Assembly: GCF_024227435.1 (NCBI RefSeq)
Contig: NZ_CP100446.1
Location: 620,001 to 684,000, forward strand
Direction: 5' to 3'
Length of the DNA stretch: 64,000 bases
Source of the DNA: Natrinema caseinilyticum
Lineage (GTDB): Archaea > Halobacteriota > Halobacteria > Halobacteriales > Natrialbaceae
The notes beneath the pieces were generated by a model. It saw only the letters and a list, made by a program, of their open reading frames with translations. It had not been told where the DNA came from and made no database searches. Within the stretch, counting starts at the first letter, position 1. Every line of letters begins with the position of its first letter. Below, piece by piece: positions 6,525 to 12,025 of the stretch. The position numbers and the translations under genes are program-made.

Positions 6525-7260
6525 GCGGCCGCGGAAATGACAGCAACTGAGGCATTTCGAGGCCCTCATAGGCACCGATCGCGGCCATCACCGTTCTCCT
6601 TCCACGACCGCATGCAATCTCGAGACATATGGAACCAAATTAGAATTTAAACTATTATATTATCATGAAATCGACGATAGAATCAGACAACTACTCACGG
6701 TCAGACTCGCGGTATTTCATCCAATAAGTGCAGAACAGCGTCTCAGGCATGAAGAACATGTCAGGATTGTAACTCAAATATAAATACATGCACCGTTCAT
6801 TGTGAGTTTTATGTCTAACGACGTCCACGAAACCGTCTGAGACGTGCGGCGAGATTAAAGGCCGTTCTGTCGTCCGTCTGCGTCGACCGCTTATACTAAT
6901 GCAGTAGCAGTCTCCGACGTGGCGGTCCGCGATCTAATCCTGCACAAGCAGTACGAACAGTCCGTATCTGTCAGACCGTGATCATTCGAATAGAAGAGTT
7001 CGGACGGATGCCCGACCGGAAATCGATCGTCACGGCGTGGAGACAACTTTTCCGGTGCTTGATGAATCAGTGGGCTGCCGCAGCGTCCTCGAGCGAAAAT
7101 TCGCTGCCGACGGCCACCTCGAAGCCGCCGTTCGAAAACCCTTGGTCAGGTCGGAGACGGCAGTCGCGATCCAAGACGGATTGCACGCGACGGCCTGCCT
7201 CCTCGGCAGCGTGCTATCAGCGGGCGAAACTTCTATCACGGTATGTGTTGGTCACACCCA
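6525..7260. other. Gap without a supported gene; AT-rich centre
   Basis: About 6640-6830 is clearly A/T-rich, while 7030-7250 returns to high GC with short open frames that match nothing I recognise. On the minus strand near 6541-6590 a short frame starting MAAIGAYEGLE follows a GGAG motif. It faintly recalls the first residues of haloarchaeal HMG-CoA-synthase-like proteins but loses similarity at once. The segment is probably intergenic debris plus the promoter of the ligase at 7261. Confidence 0.4.
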
Positions 7261-8925
7261 ATGTCCATGAAACTATACGGTCTGGAGCAGACAGCACGGT
7301 ACGAGGAAGCAGGCGTCTGGAGCGACGAGACGCTACTCGAGCGGTTCGCGGACACCGTCGATCGGTATCCCGACCGAACGGCCGTCGTCGACCCGCCGAA
7401 CACGCCGGAGTTGGTCGACCGGGAACCCGAGCGATTGACGTACGCAGAGTTCGTCGAGGCCGTCGAGGCCGTCGCGACGTCGCTTCGCGAGCGCGGCATC
7501 GGGAAGGACGACTTCGTCGTGGCGCAGTTGCCGAACACGTGGGAGTTGGCCATGTTGTATCTGGCGGTCGCTCGAGCGGGCGCCGTCCTGTCGCCCATGC
7601 CGATCCAGTGGCGACGACACGAACTCGAACACGTGGTAGACGTGACGGAGGCCATCGCGTACGTCGGACCCCGGGAATTCAACGGATTCGACCACGTCGA
7701 GATGGCAACGGCGTTCGCCGACGAGTCGGCGATTCTCGACGACGTCATCTCGTTCGCGGACGTTCGCGAATTCACGACCGCCGACGCGGATACCGCGGCG
7801 CTCGTCGACGTCGAAGTCGGTGCCAACGAGGTGTTTAATCTCCAATGGACGTCGGGGACGACCGCCGATCCCAAGGCGTGCCCGATGACACACAACAACT
7901 GGCAGTCGAACCCGACGCCGCTACTGTGCGATATGAACGAGGGCGACGTGGTCCTCTGTGCGGCGCCGTTGGTCAACATGACCGCGCTCGGCGTCAATTA
8001 CGTGCCGTGGCTGCTGACTCGCGGCACGCTCGTGCTCCATCACCCCATCGACCTCGGGCTAATGGTCGAACAGATGCAGGACGAGGGCGTCACGTTCACT
8101 ATTCTGGTGCCGACGATGCTGAACCAGTTGCTCAAGCACCCCGACGTGGACGAGTTCGACCTGAGCGACGTCGAGACGATCACGACCGGTTCGGCCGCCC
8201 CGTCCGAGTGGGCGATGCAAGAGTTCAACGAGCAGTGGGGAATCGAGATCATCAACATCTGGGGCCAGAACGAGGGAACGTCCGCCATCAGCGGCCCGAA
8301 GACGACGCCCCTGGAGCGGCGCGCGACGGACTTTCCCCGGTTCGCCGAAGACGTCGACTGGGGCATCGACGACCCGCGAATCGATACCGTCGACATCCGT
8401 ATCGTCAACCCCGAGAACGGCGAGGAAGTGACCGTGCCGGGCGAGGTCGGTGAAGTCGCGTTCAAGGGCCCAGGGCTCATGGCCGGCTATTACAACCAGC
8501 CCGAGCTCACGGCGGACGCGTTCGACGACGACGGCTACTTCTACACCGGTGATCTGTTCCAAGTCGAGGAGGACGGTTACATGAGCTTCTTCGATCGCAA
8601 GAAAGACGTGATCATCCGAGGTGGGTTCACCATCAGTGCGAAGGAAGTCGAGAACATCGTCATCGAGCATCCGAAGGTCGCCGACGCCGCCGTCGTCGGC
8701 GAACCACACGAAGACCTGGGCGAGCGGGTAGCGGTCTTCGCAGCGCCGAAGCCGGGCGAGGACCTCCGACTCCAGGACATCACGGAGTATATGGGCGACG
8801 ACGTCGCCGTCTACAAGCGTCCCGAGCGACTGGAGATCGTCGAGGAGATCCCCCGGAATCCGGTCGGCAAAGTCGTCAAGACGGATCTCCGAGAACGAGT
8901 CCAGAGTCCCGACTCGAGAGACTGA
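7261..8925 (+). CDS. AMP-dependent acyl/aryl-CoA (or acyl-adenylate) ligase
   Basis: A 554-residue ANL-superfamily ligase. The phosphate-binding A3 motif is LQWTSGTTADPKACPMTH, in which the usual Gly before the acidic residue is Ala. The adenylate-binding block is NIWGQNEGTSA, followed by YFYTGDLFQV, DRKKDVIIRGGFTISAKEVE and, near the C-terminus, the catalytic lysine in NPVGKVVKTDLRER. The overall architecture is nearer to the cyclohexanecarboxylate/2,3-dihydroxybenzoate ligase group than to the acetyl-CoA-synthetase-like ligases further along. It would activate a carboxylic acid to an adenylate and then a thioester; the acid is unknown. Several in-frame ATGs exist (7243, 7261, 7267). It stands as a single gene before rdfA. 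Confidence 0.88.
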   Translation: MSMKLYGLEQTARYEEAGVWSDETLLERFADTVDRYPDRTAVVDPPNTPELVDREPERLTYAEFVEAVEAVATSLRERGIGKDDFVVAQLPNTWELAMLYLAVARAGAVLSPMPIQWRRHELEHVVDVTEAIAYVGPREFNGFDHVEMATAFADESAILDDVISFADVREFTTADADTAALVDVEVGANEVFNLQWTSGTTADPKACPMTHNNWQSNPTPLLCDMNEGDVVLCAAPLVNMTALGVNYVPWLLTRGTLVLHHPIDLGLMVEQMQDEGVTFTILVPTMLNQLLKHPDVDEFDLSDVETITTGSAAPSEWAMQEFNEQWGIEIINIWGQNEGTSAISGPKTTPLERRATDFPRFAEDVDWGIDDPRIDTVDIRIVNPENGEEVTVPGEVGEVAFKGPGLMAGYYNQPELTADAFDDDGYFYTGDLFQVEEDGYMSFFDRKKDVIIRGGFTISAKEVENIVIEHPKVADAAVVGEPHEDLGERVAVFAAPKPGEDLRLQDITEYMGDDVAVYKRPERLEIVEEIPRNPVGKVVKTDLRERVQSPDSRD

Positions 8926-9006: not shown

Positions 9007-9591
9007 ATGAGCGAATACGGGTGTAAAGTATGCCGAATATTAGACGAATATGGTATGAAGAGATATGAGGAGCAATTGCTCGAACAGTGGCAGGCGGACC
9101 CGCCCCAACGGAAGGGGTATCGACAACTCGCCGAGTGGTTCAACACGCTTATGCTGCGCCGCGAAATGGACCGCGCGGGCCTCTCGACGCTGGGAGACGA
9201 GGCCGAATCGAAGTACGAACGGCTCCGTGCGGACGAGACGATCGCAGAGGAAGTTGCGACGGAACTGGCCAACGCCGGAGTCCCGATCGATCGACTACGG
9301 AACGACTTCGTGTCCTATGGCGTGATCCGGACCCACCTGAAAGAGTGTCTGGACTCCGACGTCGAACTCTCGAGCGGCGAGTGGGAACAGGACGCGATCG
9401 AAATCGCCCGGGATCACGCCGGTTCGAAGATTTCGGAGGCCGTCCGATCGCTCACGAATAAAGGTCAATTGACCGCCAGCGGTGATATCGCCGTGTCCGT
9501 CACCGCGGAACTCGAATGCGAAAACTGTCACGCCCGCGTCCCCGCAGACCGAGCGATCCGTCGCGGCTACGTTTGTCGTTGTGAGGAATAA
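9007..9591 (+). CDS. rdfA: Rod-determining factor RdfA-like protein
   Basis: A 194-residue haloarchaeal protein beginning MSEYGCKVCRILDEYGM, containing GYRQLAEWFNTLMLRREMDR in the first third and ending in a Cys-rich segment (CENCHARVPADRAIRRGYVC). Proteins of this family include RdfA of Haloferax volcanii, which is needed for rod-shaped cells. The biochemical activity is unknown, but the N- and C-terminal CxxC/CxC groups could bind zinc. Its stop codon is followed after 2 nt by the SMC-like gene, so the two are translationally coupled partners. In this setting it may be one of several rdfA paralogs carried by accessory replicons. Confidence 0.85.
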   Translation: MSEYGCKVCRILDEYGMKRYEEQLLEQWQADPPQRKGYRQLAEWFNTLMLRREMDRAGLSTLGDEAESKYERLRADETIAEEVATELANAGVPIDRLRNDFVSYGVIRTHLKECLDSDVELSSGEWEQDAIEIARDHAGSKISEAVRSLTNKGQLTASGDIAVSVTAELECENCHARVPADRAIRRGYVCRCEE

Positions 9592-9593
9592 CA

Positions 9594-11447
9594 ATGTCTG
9601 ATCGAACGCTTCACCTCGAACTCGAAAACATCGGTGGCATCGAACGGGAAGAGATCTCGATTACCGAGGGGGCTACCTTCATCCAGGGGCCCAACGCGGC
9701 GAACAAGAGTTCGCTGCTCAAGGGCCTCCTCTTCGCCCTCGGCGCCAGGACGGTTCCGATCCGAAGCGGAGCCGACGAGGCGCGTGCAACGCTCTCAGTC
9801 GGCGACCGGCGCGTCGAACGCGTCGCCCGCCGGACCGACGCCGGCGTCGAGACGAGCGGCGAGGCCTGGATCAGCGATTCCGACGACGTCACCCTCCTCG
9901 AGCGGTTCGCGGCGTTACTGGAGACGAACTCCCTCAGAAGCGCCGTCGCACGCAACGAAGACGTCGAGACGTTACTGAAAGAACCGATGGACATCGAAGC
10001 GCTTGAGGAGAAACGCTCGGCGAAGATGCGCCGAAAACGAGAGTTCACCGCCGACGTGGAATCGGCCGGCGACGTCGACGAGCGCCTCGGAGACCGCGAA
10101 CGCGAACTCGCGGAAAAGCGCGACCGACTCGACGAACTCGAGACGACCCTCGAGGAACTCTACGACGAGCAGGACGCGAGTAGCACCGATGATGACGATG
10201 GCCTTCAGGAACTCCGCGACGAGCGAGCCGACCTCCGTTCGGACGAAACCGATCACGAGGCACAGATCGAGCAGTTGGAAAGCGCTATCGACCGGCTCGA
10301 GGAGCGGAAAACCGAGATCGAATCCGACATCGAATCGACGCGGGAGACCGTCGAATCGAACGACCTCGAGCGCCTTGAGCGCGAACGCGAGAGCGTCCGG
10401 TCCGAACTCGACGACGTAACGCGACGGCTCGACGTCTTGCAGTCGGTCCTGACCGCGAACCGGGAGATGCTCGATTCCGAGTTCACCGGCGCGCTCGGCC
10501 ACGACACCGGGCTGATGGGCGACGAGGTGACCTGCTGGGCCTGCGGTCGCTCCGCCCCCCTCGAGGAGTTCGACGAGACGGTCGACGAACTGACGGAGCT
10601 CGTCAAAGATGACAAACGACGAAAGCGGGAGCGCGAACCGGAGATCGAGGAACTCACCGAGCAAATCGAGGAGGTCAGGCGGTCGGAAACGGAACTACAG
10701 GAACTCGAATCGGAGATGCGAGACGTCGAGCAGAAGCTGGCGAGTCGGCGTGACTCGCTCGACGACCGGCAGAGCCAGCTCCGGACCGTTCGCGACCGAC
10801 TCGACGAACTCGACGACGGGATCGCCCAGCGGGCGGCCGATCAGCGCTCCGAGCAGTCGGCGCTCACCGAGGAGATCGAGGAGACGCGCGTCGAAATCCA
10901 GACGCTCCGGCGGGAGATCGAGCGGCTCGAAGGCACGTGTGAATCGCTTCGAGAGACGCAGGGGGAAATCGAACGAAAACGCGACGAGATCGAGGAGTTG
11001 ACGGACGAGATCACGGCGCTGACCGATCGGATCGAAAACCTCGAGAGCGAACTCCGAGAGGTGTTCAACGGGACGATGGACGAACTATTGGACGCGCTCG
11101 AGTTCGAGCGGATCGAGCGCGTGTGGCTCGACGGCGAGTTTGAGCTCGTGATCGCCCGGGAAGTCGACGGACGGACCCAGCAGGACTCCCTCGACCACCT
11201 CGCCGAGAGCGAGCGGGAGATGGTCGGGCTCGTGCTCGCGCTGGCCGGTTTCGTCACGTACGACGTCGCTGACATCACGCCGGTGCTGGTCCTGGACTCG
11301 CTGGGCGCGTTCGACGCGGAACGGACGCGGAGGTTGGTCGACCACTTCGCCGACGAAACCGACTATCTGGTTGCGACGGCTCATCCGGAATCCGCCGTCG
11401 ACGCGACGTTCGACACGATCACGTTCGAACCGCCCGTTCAGGGATAG
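9594..11447 (+). CDS. Archaea-specific SMC-related ATPase
   Basis: A 617-residue protein with the layout of a short SMC/Rad50 protein. There is an N-terminal Walker A region IQGPNAANKSSLLKG (residues 30-44), a long charged coiled coil with a mid-coil CWACGR (Cys314/Cys317, zinc-hook-like), and a second coil. The C-terminal ATPase half has LAESEREMVGLVLALAGF in the place of the ABC signature and VLVLDSLGAFD (Asp568) as Walker B. The P-loop is NKS rather than GKS/T, and the Walker B Asp is followed by Ser instead of the catalytic Glu. ATP may therefore be bound but hydrolysed poorly. It follows rdfA with 2 nt spacing and is the usual partner of that gene. The role is probably structural or DNA-organising; this is inference. 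Confidence 0.86.
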   Translation: MSDRTLHLELENIGGIEREEISITEGATFIQGPNAANKSSLLKGLLFALGARTVPIRSGADEARATLSVGDRRVERVARRTDAGVETSGEAWISDSDDVTLLERFAALLETNSLRSAVARNEDVETLLKEPMDIEALEEKRSAKMRRKREFTADVESAGDVDERLGDRERELAEKRDRLDELETTLEELYDEQDASSTDDDDGLQELRDERADLRSDETDHEAQIEQLESAIDRLEERKTEIESDIESTRETVESNDLERLERERESVRSELDDVTRRLDVLQSVLTANREMLDSEFTGALGHDTGLMGDEVTCWACGRSAPLEEFDETVDELTELVKDDKRRKREREPEIEELTEQIEEVRRSETELQELESEMRDVEQKLASRRDSLDDRQSQLRTVRDRLDELDDGIAQRAADQRSEQSALTEEIEETRVEIQTLRREIERLEGTCESLRETQGEIERKRDEIEELTDEITALTDRIENLESELREVFNGTMDELLDALEFERIERVWLDGEFELVIAREVDGRTQQDSLDHLAESEREMVGLVLALAGFVTYDVADITPVLVLDSLGAFDAERTRRLVDHFADETDYLVATAHPESAVDATFDTITFEPPVQG

Positions 11448-11539: not shown

Positions 11540-12025
11540 TCAATAAACAGGGAGGTAATTTCTTATGTTTACGGCGCGGTCGGTTTCGATGAAGTGATCC
11601 ATCTCTGCCACCGGATCGATCCCCCTGACCTGAACGAGTAAGTCGTCTATTTCGACGTTCGATTTCGCGGTGGCGATCGCGTACAGATCGACGGTACCGA
11701 AGCCCTCCGCGACGAACCAGAAGTCCATGTCCGACATCGCGTCGAAGACGTCCTGTTTCGCCCCGGGTTCGTCGGCAGTTCGAACCGTCACGAGGATGAT
11801 CTCCCAGCTGTTTCGCTCCGGACGAGGCAGGAAGAAGCTCGTCATGTTTTCGAGCAGCGACGTCACCCGTCGGCGAACGCCCTCGCTGCTCATGTCGATG
11901 TCGTGTTCGGCGAGTTCGTCCGCGATATCCGCGTACGGGCTCCGCGGGTCGTTCGCCAGTATCTCGAGGATACGTCGATCGATTTCGTCCAGTTCGAGAA
12001 GGTCGTCGCAGGAGCCGTCTGACAT
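11540..12025 (-). CDS. Lrp/AsnC-like transcriptional regulator
   Basis: A 161-residue protein. The N-terminal helix-turn-helix reads LDEIDRRILEILANDPRSPY through ADELAEHDIDMSSEGVRRRV, the classical AsnC-type winged-helix pattern. The second half (EIILVTVRTADEPGAKQDVF, FVAEGFGTVDLYAIATAKS) resembles a RAM/ACT-like effector domain. Lrp-type proteins sense amino acids or other small metabolites. The target is unknown. It is flanked by the SMC-like gene (convergent) and an acyl-CoA dehydrogenase on the same strand, so control of local acyl-CoA genes is plausible but unproven. Confidence 0.82.
   Translation of the reverse strand: MSDGSCDDLLELDEIDRRILEILANDPRSPYADIADELAEHDIDMSSEGVRRRVTSLLENMTSFFLPRPERNSWEIILVTVRTADEPGAKQDVFDAMSDMDFWFVAEGFGTVDLYAIATAKSNVEIDDLLVQVRGIDPVAEMDHFIETDRAVNIRNYLPVY

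Follow-up and report, generated by a model that had tools for sequence, protein, structure and literature searches.

A conserved non-canonical ATPase core in an archaea-specific SMC-related protein encoded next to RdfA

Proteins of the SMC superfamily are usually regarded as ATP-driven machines. In the 64,000-nucleotide stretch of haloarchaeal DNA that we have analysed (the window), a gene for an RdfA family protein is followed by one for an archaea-specific SMC-related protein (ASRP, also Sph) whose ATPase core departs from the canonical motifs. The locus thus raises the question of whether such a core marks a decaying copy or a feature of the whole family, and what a protein of this kind could do with RdfA as its partner.

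The gene pair and its ATPase-core motifs

The window belongs to a contig of at least 699 kb (C2) in a genome of 4.77 Mb. As a second contig (C1) accounts for 3.94 Mb, C2 represents a secondary replicon of at most 829 kb. The genome search identified six ASRPs and seven RdfAs. The features of the locus are collected in Table 1. The rdfA stop codon and the ASRP start codon are 2 nt apart (TAA CA ATG in the open reading frames), and the reading frames, this gap and the motifs GPNAANKSS, CWAC, LAESER and VLVLDS, which an earlier note on this DNA had described, were all confirmed in place.

Table 1. Features of the rdfA-ASRP locus (positions in the window)
Feature	Position	Strand	Evidence or remark
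Acyl-CoA ligase (class I adenylate-forming enzyme), directly upstream of rdfA	7243..8925	+	NCBIfam fatty-acid-CoA ligase models
rdfA, RdfA family protein, 194 aa	9007..9591	+	PF21811, 177 bits
ASRP/Sph, archaea-specific SMC-related protein, 617 aa, head/coiled coil/zinc hook/coiled coil/head	9594..11447	+	NF045487, 483 bits
Walker A variant GPNAANKSS, aa 32-40	9687..9713	+	Direct reading; all 17 window-clade proteins have N37 and K38
Zinc hook CWAC, aa 314-317, coiled-coil apex	10533..10544	+	Direct reading; almost every aligned ASRP has a CxxC
Signature-motif variant LAESER, aa 536-541	11199..11216	+	E538, S539 and E540 invariant in the window clade; A537 in 15/17
Walker B variant VLVLDS, aa 564-569, Ser replacing the catalytic Glu	11283..11300	+	Glu absent in 119/120 halobacterial ASRPs
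Switch (H-loop) TAHPES, aa 595-600, His retained	11376..11393	+	Window clade: His in 15/17; NRTS/HRSS type: Leu in 79/79
AsnC/Lrp-type regulator, convergent with the rdfA-ASRP pair	11540..12025	-	Commonest neighbour of the window clade

The window ASRP scored 483 bits against NF045487 (cut-off 300), with residues 12-599 aligned to profile positions 1-593, and grouped with all sampled halobacterial ASRPs in the tree (support 98). Its named close relatives come from Natrinema, Haloterrigena, Natronolimnohabitans and Natronococcus. An identity as Arcadin-4 (Rkd4, NF053563) was ruled out, since the score was 16 bits against a cut-off of 860. The RdfA protein exceeded the gathering cut-off of PF21811 (27 bits) by a wide margin. 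It carries a CKVC near the N-terminus (aa 6-9) and a C-terminal CENC...CRC that is likely a zinc ribbon (aa 171-192), in which C171, C174 and C190 are kept in 93-95% of 114 RdfAs. Comparing the RdfA profile with PDB and Pfam returned RdfA itself and weak zinc-ribbon matches, nothing else, and the structure model, built from five sequences, was unusable (mean pLDDT 44.5).

Measured against the canonical GxxGxGK[ST], the Walker A variant of the window ASRP retains the lysine and serine and is missing both later glycines, including the P-loop glycine before the lysine. LAESER departs from the canonical LSGG[QE] signature, and VLVLDS is without the catalytic glutamate; the Walker A lysine and Ser/Thr, the Walker B aspartate and the switch histidine are kept. 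The register of the Walker B reading was supported by VIVLDELTYLD in an RdfA-linked relative (L064) and by the D-loop FDAER. The Rad50 of the same genome, taken as control, was canonical (GVNGSGKST, LSGGER and LILDEPT). Among the 17 proteins of the window clade (relatives 47-81% identical to the window copy), D568 was found in 17/17 and serine or threonine at position 569 also in 17/17. Such invariance indicates that the motifs did not arise by chance.

The AlphaFold model of the ASRP comprised two long antiparallel helices (134-294 and 323-502) joined at the hook, the CWAC falling in the loop between them, and a partial head (mean pLDDT 73.9, pTM 0.36, Walker-B half of the head below 50). The best Foldseek matches of this model were chains of Rad50 and SMC5/6, mostly over the coiled coil and mostly with TM-scores below 0.3, and the predicted fold points to the SMC/Rad50 superfamily. 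With Rad50 (own-genome L191; 3qf7) the window protein shares the hooked coiled coil and an N-terminal head half that is still recognisable (phmmer E 0.002). It has, however, none of the three Rad50 motifs (GxNGSGKST, LSGGER and LDEPT), and its partner is RdfA; Mre11 was not seen among the identified genes neighbouring the pair.

Three P-loop types across the family

Genome searches and more than 100 fetched regions yielded 129 proteins that are ASRPs or resemble them. Three of these (L070-L072), whose core is canonical and Rad50-like, were excluded as outliers, which left 126 proteins in the tree, 120 of them halobacterial; the tree was computed without the motif columns. The residue following the Walker B aspartate was serine in 94 of the 120 halobacterial ASRPs, the others having glycine (13), arginine (6), alanine (3), threonine (2), glutamine (1) or glutamate (1). 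The sole glutamate belonged to a protein nested in the GK clade (L188, 1501 onwards; VMLLDELGG), where it is perhaps a reversion. The absence of the glutamate from 119 of the 120 proteins, together with an ASRP dN/dS of 0.07-0.21, identified the degenerate core as a conserved family feature and not the mark of a decayed copy, in line with the earlier note. The family alignment that the note had proposed as a check was run, and canonical motifs in most members, which would have spoken for decay, were not found.

Three P-loop types were distinguished in the halobacterial ASRPs: NRTS/HRSS/GRTS (79 proteins), GKSS, mostly as NWQGKSS (21), and NK[ST]S (20). In the tree, 17 of the 20 NK-type proteins, including that of the window, formed one group (support 100) and the GK type formed another (support 100). 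The remaining three NK proteins were nested in the large group formed by the arginine type. Two divergent proteins of the latter type (L157 and L159) branched separately. The question raised in the earlier note, whether N-K-S and D-S are family traits, has a divided answer: the Walker B glutamate is widely absent, whereas N-K-S is restricted to a sub-family, most relatives having N-R-T-S and one clade G-K-S.

A different subset of motifs has been lost in each type. In the window clade the lysine of Walker A has survived, as has the switch histidine in most members, with LAESE as signature; the GK clade retains Gly-Lys and LSEGE, with tyrosine in place of the switch histidine; and the arginine type retains the signature serine, with arginine for the Walker A lysine and leucine for the switch histidine. 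Within the signature segment, two glutamates (E538 and E540 of the window protein) were invariant in all three sets counted. Owing to its lysine and its usually conserved histidine, the window clade is less degenerate than the main ASRP type.

Outside Halobacteria, an RdfA homologue (36-53 bits, cut-off 27) adjoined an ASRP in two genomes, which represent two genera of another family of the same phylum (L064:1976-4651 and L196:3008-5668). Both ASRPs carry APNASGKTS, LSTSE and DEL, with the Walker A lysine and the Walker B glutamate intact. The L064 protein was sister to all halobacterial ASRPs (support 96), though on a long branch. Taken together, the intact residues and the sister position suggest that the pairing with RdfA is probably older than the loss of the glutamate. 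The other sampled non-halobacterial ASRPs had glutamate (L066 and L069), asparagine (L067 and L068) or aspartate (L065) at this position, so across the wider family it has changed at least twice. In a third archaeal family, RdfA homologues were seen with no recognisable ASRP alongside (L195:1526-3876 and L197:3073-4188). Both have a small opposite-strand gene nearby that starts with MxERE, and in L195 an AMP-binding acyl-CoA ligase adjoins the RdfA homologue, as in the window.

The RdfA-ASRP pairing has been published (PMC10869688), as have the ASRP family and its zinc hook (PMC9389158). The present analysis adds that the catalytic residue is lost in a conserved manner, that the P-loop comes in three types, that the residues are intact in RdfA-linked non-halobacterial relatives and that the window clade is linked to catabolic genes. 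The article defining ASRPs (Yoshinaga 2022, PMC9389158) describes a zinc hook in almost every member; the window protein has such a hook, together with head halves at the N- and C-termini. The article reports Walker A and B as present, without mention of a missing catalytic glutamate in the passages covered. The division into three P-loop types comes from the present work. No mention of this missing glutamate was found in the open-access passages and searches that our survey covered, a scope that does not establish priority.

Two other SMC-related proteins offer a comparison. SMCL-1 of Caenorhabditis elegans (PMC5373644) belongs, like the window ASRP, to the SMC superfamily and has kept Walker A while being devoid of the Walker B glutamate and a canonical signature. 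SMCL-1, however, has no hinge or coils and binds condensin, whereas the ASRP comes with coils, a hook and a partner of its own, and in its case the loss is class-wide. Coalescin ClsN of Sulfolobus is an ASRP with a zinc hook like the window protein and is chromosome-organising, but it belongs to a distant clade.

Co-inheritance with RdfA and genomic context

An ASRP was found in the flanks (about 2.6 kb a side) of 55 of 81 sampled halobacterial RdfA genes, in all four relative orientations. The RdfA tree reproduced the ASRP sub-types (114 pairs), and the path-length matrices of ASRP and RdfA were correlated at r = 0.88, a value reached in 0/2000 shuffles. When shuffling was restricted to within sub-types (mean 0.67), again 0/2000 were as high. 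The significance obtained from these shuffles is overstated because related genomes are not independent; yet several paralogues per genome keep their own partner, which shows the two families to be co-inherited as cognate pairs. Purifying selection acts on the window pair, with dN/dS of 0.07-0.21 for the ASRP and 0.04-0.09 for RdfA, several of the RdfA synonymous estimates being saturated.

The partners are not always present in equal number. One ASRP is flanked by RdfA genes on both sides (L100:2632-6491), and two RdfA genes in tandem occur at G080:C4:33706-35030 and G072:C26:9963-11991, so the RdfA to ASRP ratio is not always one to one. For the seventh RdfA of the window's own genome (G000:C1:2787008-2787580), no ASRP was present within the 5.9 kb fetched around it (L135).

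The genomic context of the window clade was also conserved. Of 12 close orthologous loci, 10 have a convergent gene for an AsnC-type regulator (72-85% identical) downstream of the pair, and the upstream acyl-CoA ligase is a neighbour (82-91% identical) in 4. Recurrent neighbours of the clade include acyl-CoA ligase, thioesterase, F420-dependent oxidoreductase, acyl-CoA dehydrogenase and related genes. The carriage with catabolic genes noticed earlier is thus real and conserved. Megaplasmids are frequent carriers of the clade: three of the orthologous loci reside on named plasmids of 285-891 kb, but at least two orthologues on contigs of 3.4 and 4.1 Mb, showing that the module is not strictly plasmid-borne. 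The window sub-type probably functions in the context of an acyl-CoA-catabolism replicon or of the corresponding physiology.

In one orthologous locus (L164:12001-13853, a plasmid of Natrinema sp. SYSU A 869, NZ_CP082247), the ASRP is represented by two overlapping ORFs of 453 and 1422 nt next to a whole rdfA, which points to a frameshift or a sequencing error.

Possible modes of action

In Haloferax volcanii, HVO_2174 (RdfA) and HVO_2175 (Sph3) are both required for rods and motility, deletion of sph3 or rdfA leaving disk-only, non-motile cells, and rdfA adjoins 42 of 50 SMC-like genes (Schiller 2024, PMC10869688). Gene conversion in H. volcanii is impaired whichever of its four sph genes is deleted, and the shape effects of sph2 and sph3 run in opposite directions (PMC11276520, 2024). 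A further article (PMC13286277, 2026) presents Sph3 as a disk (plate) factor, whereas the disk-only cells obtained by sph3 deletion (PMC10869688, PMC11276520) make it a rod factor.

We have taken the Sph3 motifs from an orthologue locus in another Haloferax-genus genome (L190) and not from H. volcanii itself; the genus assignment of this genome rests on other genomes with the same genus code, which match a Haloferax alexandrinus plasmid protein at 86-91%. The order rdfA, ASRP, HalOD1 ORF and ThiS/SAMP3-like ORF in this locus matches HVO_2174 to HVO_2177, the last being SAMP3 (PMC4500146). The ASRP, a Sph3 orthologue by its neighbours, carries GRNATNRTS and DS, and Sph2 of H. salinarum (pNRC200) carries GRNATGRTS and DS. 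Given that sph3 is needed for rods, this would mean a rod function exerted with neither the Walker A lysine nor the catalytic glutamate, and Sph3 probably needs no canonical core for it. The ddfA (HalOD1) orthologue of the same locus (L190:6036-6404) is an open frame without any ATG, which fits the published puzzle of the DdfA start codon (PMC10869688).

The RdfA-Sph3 and window pairs consist of the same two families, adjacent in both cases. They differ in that the Sph3 orthologue is of the NRTS type, with leucine for the switch histidine, whereas the window protein belongs to a separate NKSS clade and is about 30% identical to own-genome paralogues of other types; moreover, the window pair is linked to acyl-CoA catabolism genes and RdfA-Sph3 to ddfA. 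As the H. volcanii paralogues have opposite or different shape phenotypes (PMC11276520), shape control, which the earlier note had envisaged for the replicon, should not be assumed for the window clade. Among RdfA proteins, a requirement for rods has been shown only for HVO_2174 (PMC10869688).

An ATP-binding or very slow ATPase scaffold, as suggested in the earlier note, is the most natural reading of the motifs. The CWAC zinc hook would join two ASRP subunits into a dimer with two Rad50/SMC-like heads. Since the lysine and Ser/Thr of Walker A are in place, as is the aspartate of Walker B, these heads are predicted to bind ATP, with hydrolysis expected to be poor or absent. With the catalytic glutamate missing and the signature helix altered, the heads would close as a switch that is driven by binding or very slow, instead of running through rapid ATPase cycles. 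RdfA, small, probably helical and with a putative zinc ribbon, is probably the dedicated partner of the ASRP, directing it to a target or regulating its state. The most likely site of action is the nucleoid, where the module would serve as a clamp or tether; any changes in shape and motility would be downstream effects. A nucleoid role is favoured by the Sph functions in gene conversion (PMC11276520) and by the chromosome organisation due to the ASRP relative ClsN (PMC12284271). We give this hook-dimerised, non-hydrolysing nucleoid clamp about an even chance of being correct.

The significance of such a mechanism lies in an SMC-like family, retained by Halobacteria, in which 119 of 120 sampled proteins have no catalytic glutamate and most no Walker A lysine, and of which members are yet needed for rods, motility and gene conversion in Haloferax. 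If the activity is indeed non-hydrolysing, this would be a SMC-like scaffold functioning without an ATPase cycle. A broader scenario, which we put forward tentatively and consider unlikely as a whole, is that Halobacteria turned a complete ancestral RdfA-linked SMC-like ATPase into class-wide non-hydrolysing ATP-binding switches in three variants, one of them devoted to acyl-CoA-catabolism accessory replicons and tuning nucleoid organisation or cell form to that metabolism.

The main rival is a cytoskeletal scaffold, in which hook and coiled coil would assemble into an intermediate-filament-like or cortical structure promoting rod shape, the head being a non-enzymatic assembly domain. The coiled-coil build and the shape phenotypes, among them the disk-only, non-motile deletion strains, also fit this reading; a cytoskeletal-like role was proposed by analogy with Arcadin-4 and coiled-coil-rich proteins (PMC10869688), and a non-enzymatic head would agree with the missing catalytic glutamate and with the Walker A lysine that most members have lost. 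However, Arcadin-4 was ruled out as the identity of the window protein, gene conversion depends on all four H. volcanii Sphs and paralogues act oppositely on shape (PMC11276520), and the observed conservation of P-loop residues would be unexpected in a pure scaffold. We regard the scaffold as a serious possibility, though a rather unlikely one.

Absence of the Walker B glutamate is no proof against hydrolysis, as a substitute residue could take over. The module might thus be an ordinary SMC/Rad50-like motor that hydrolyses ATP through another acidic or a partner-supplied residue. The window clade, with Walker A lysine, Walker B aspartate and switch histidine intact, would be suited to this, most NRTS-type proteins carry a glutamate two residues past the serine (DSLEAI), and the GK-type member L188 has DE. 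Against this, the window clade has DSLGAF, with no acidic residue directly after S569, alanine replaces the signature serine in 15 of its 17 members, and the change is fixed in three clades, all of which makes an active ATPase improbable.

Less probable still is a role in replicon maintenance or defence, with a plasmid-borne, Lamassu/Wadjet-like module acting on incoming or competing DNA. Many copies do reside on plasmids and secondary replicons, PADLOC detected weak similarity to LmuB and JetC (at most 58 bits), and Lamassu and Jet chains were among the Foldseek matches. The PADLOC similarity lay mostly in the coiled coil, however, and RdfA had no PADLOC match; the annotated genes adjoining the pair in three plasmid loci included no effector nuclease, no copy was found in phages or, with the ASRP alignment as query, in viral contigs, and the known paralogues act on shape and gene conversion. 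Identity with Lamassu itself was ruled out, the LmuB match being confined mostly to the coiled coil and the partner being RdfA instead of the LmuA effector. Finally, a decaying paralogue, with odd motifs due to erosion of an unused copy, finds a parallel in the one of 12 close orthologues that is split by an apparent frameshift (L164) but is contradicted, and made negligible, by the low dN/dS, the invariance of the motifs in the window clade and the match between the ASRP and RdfA trees.
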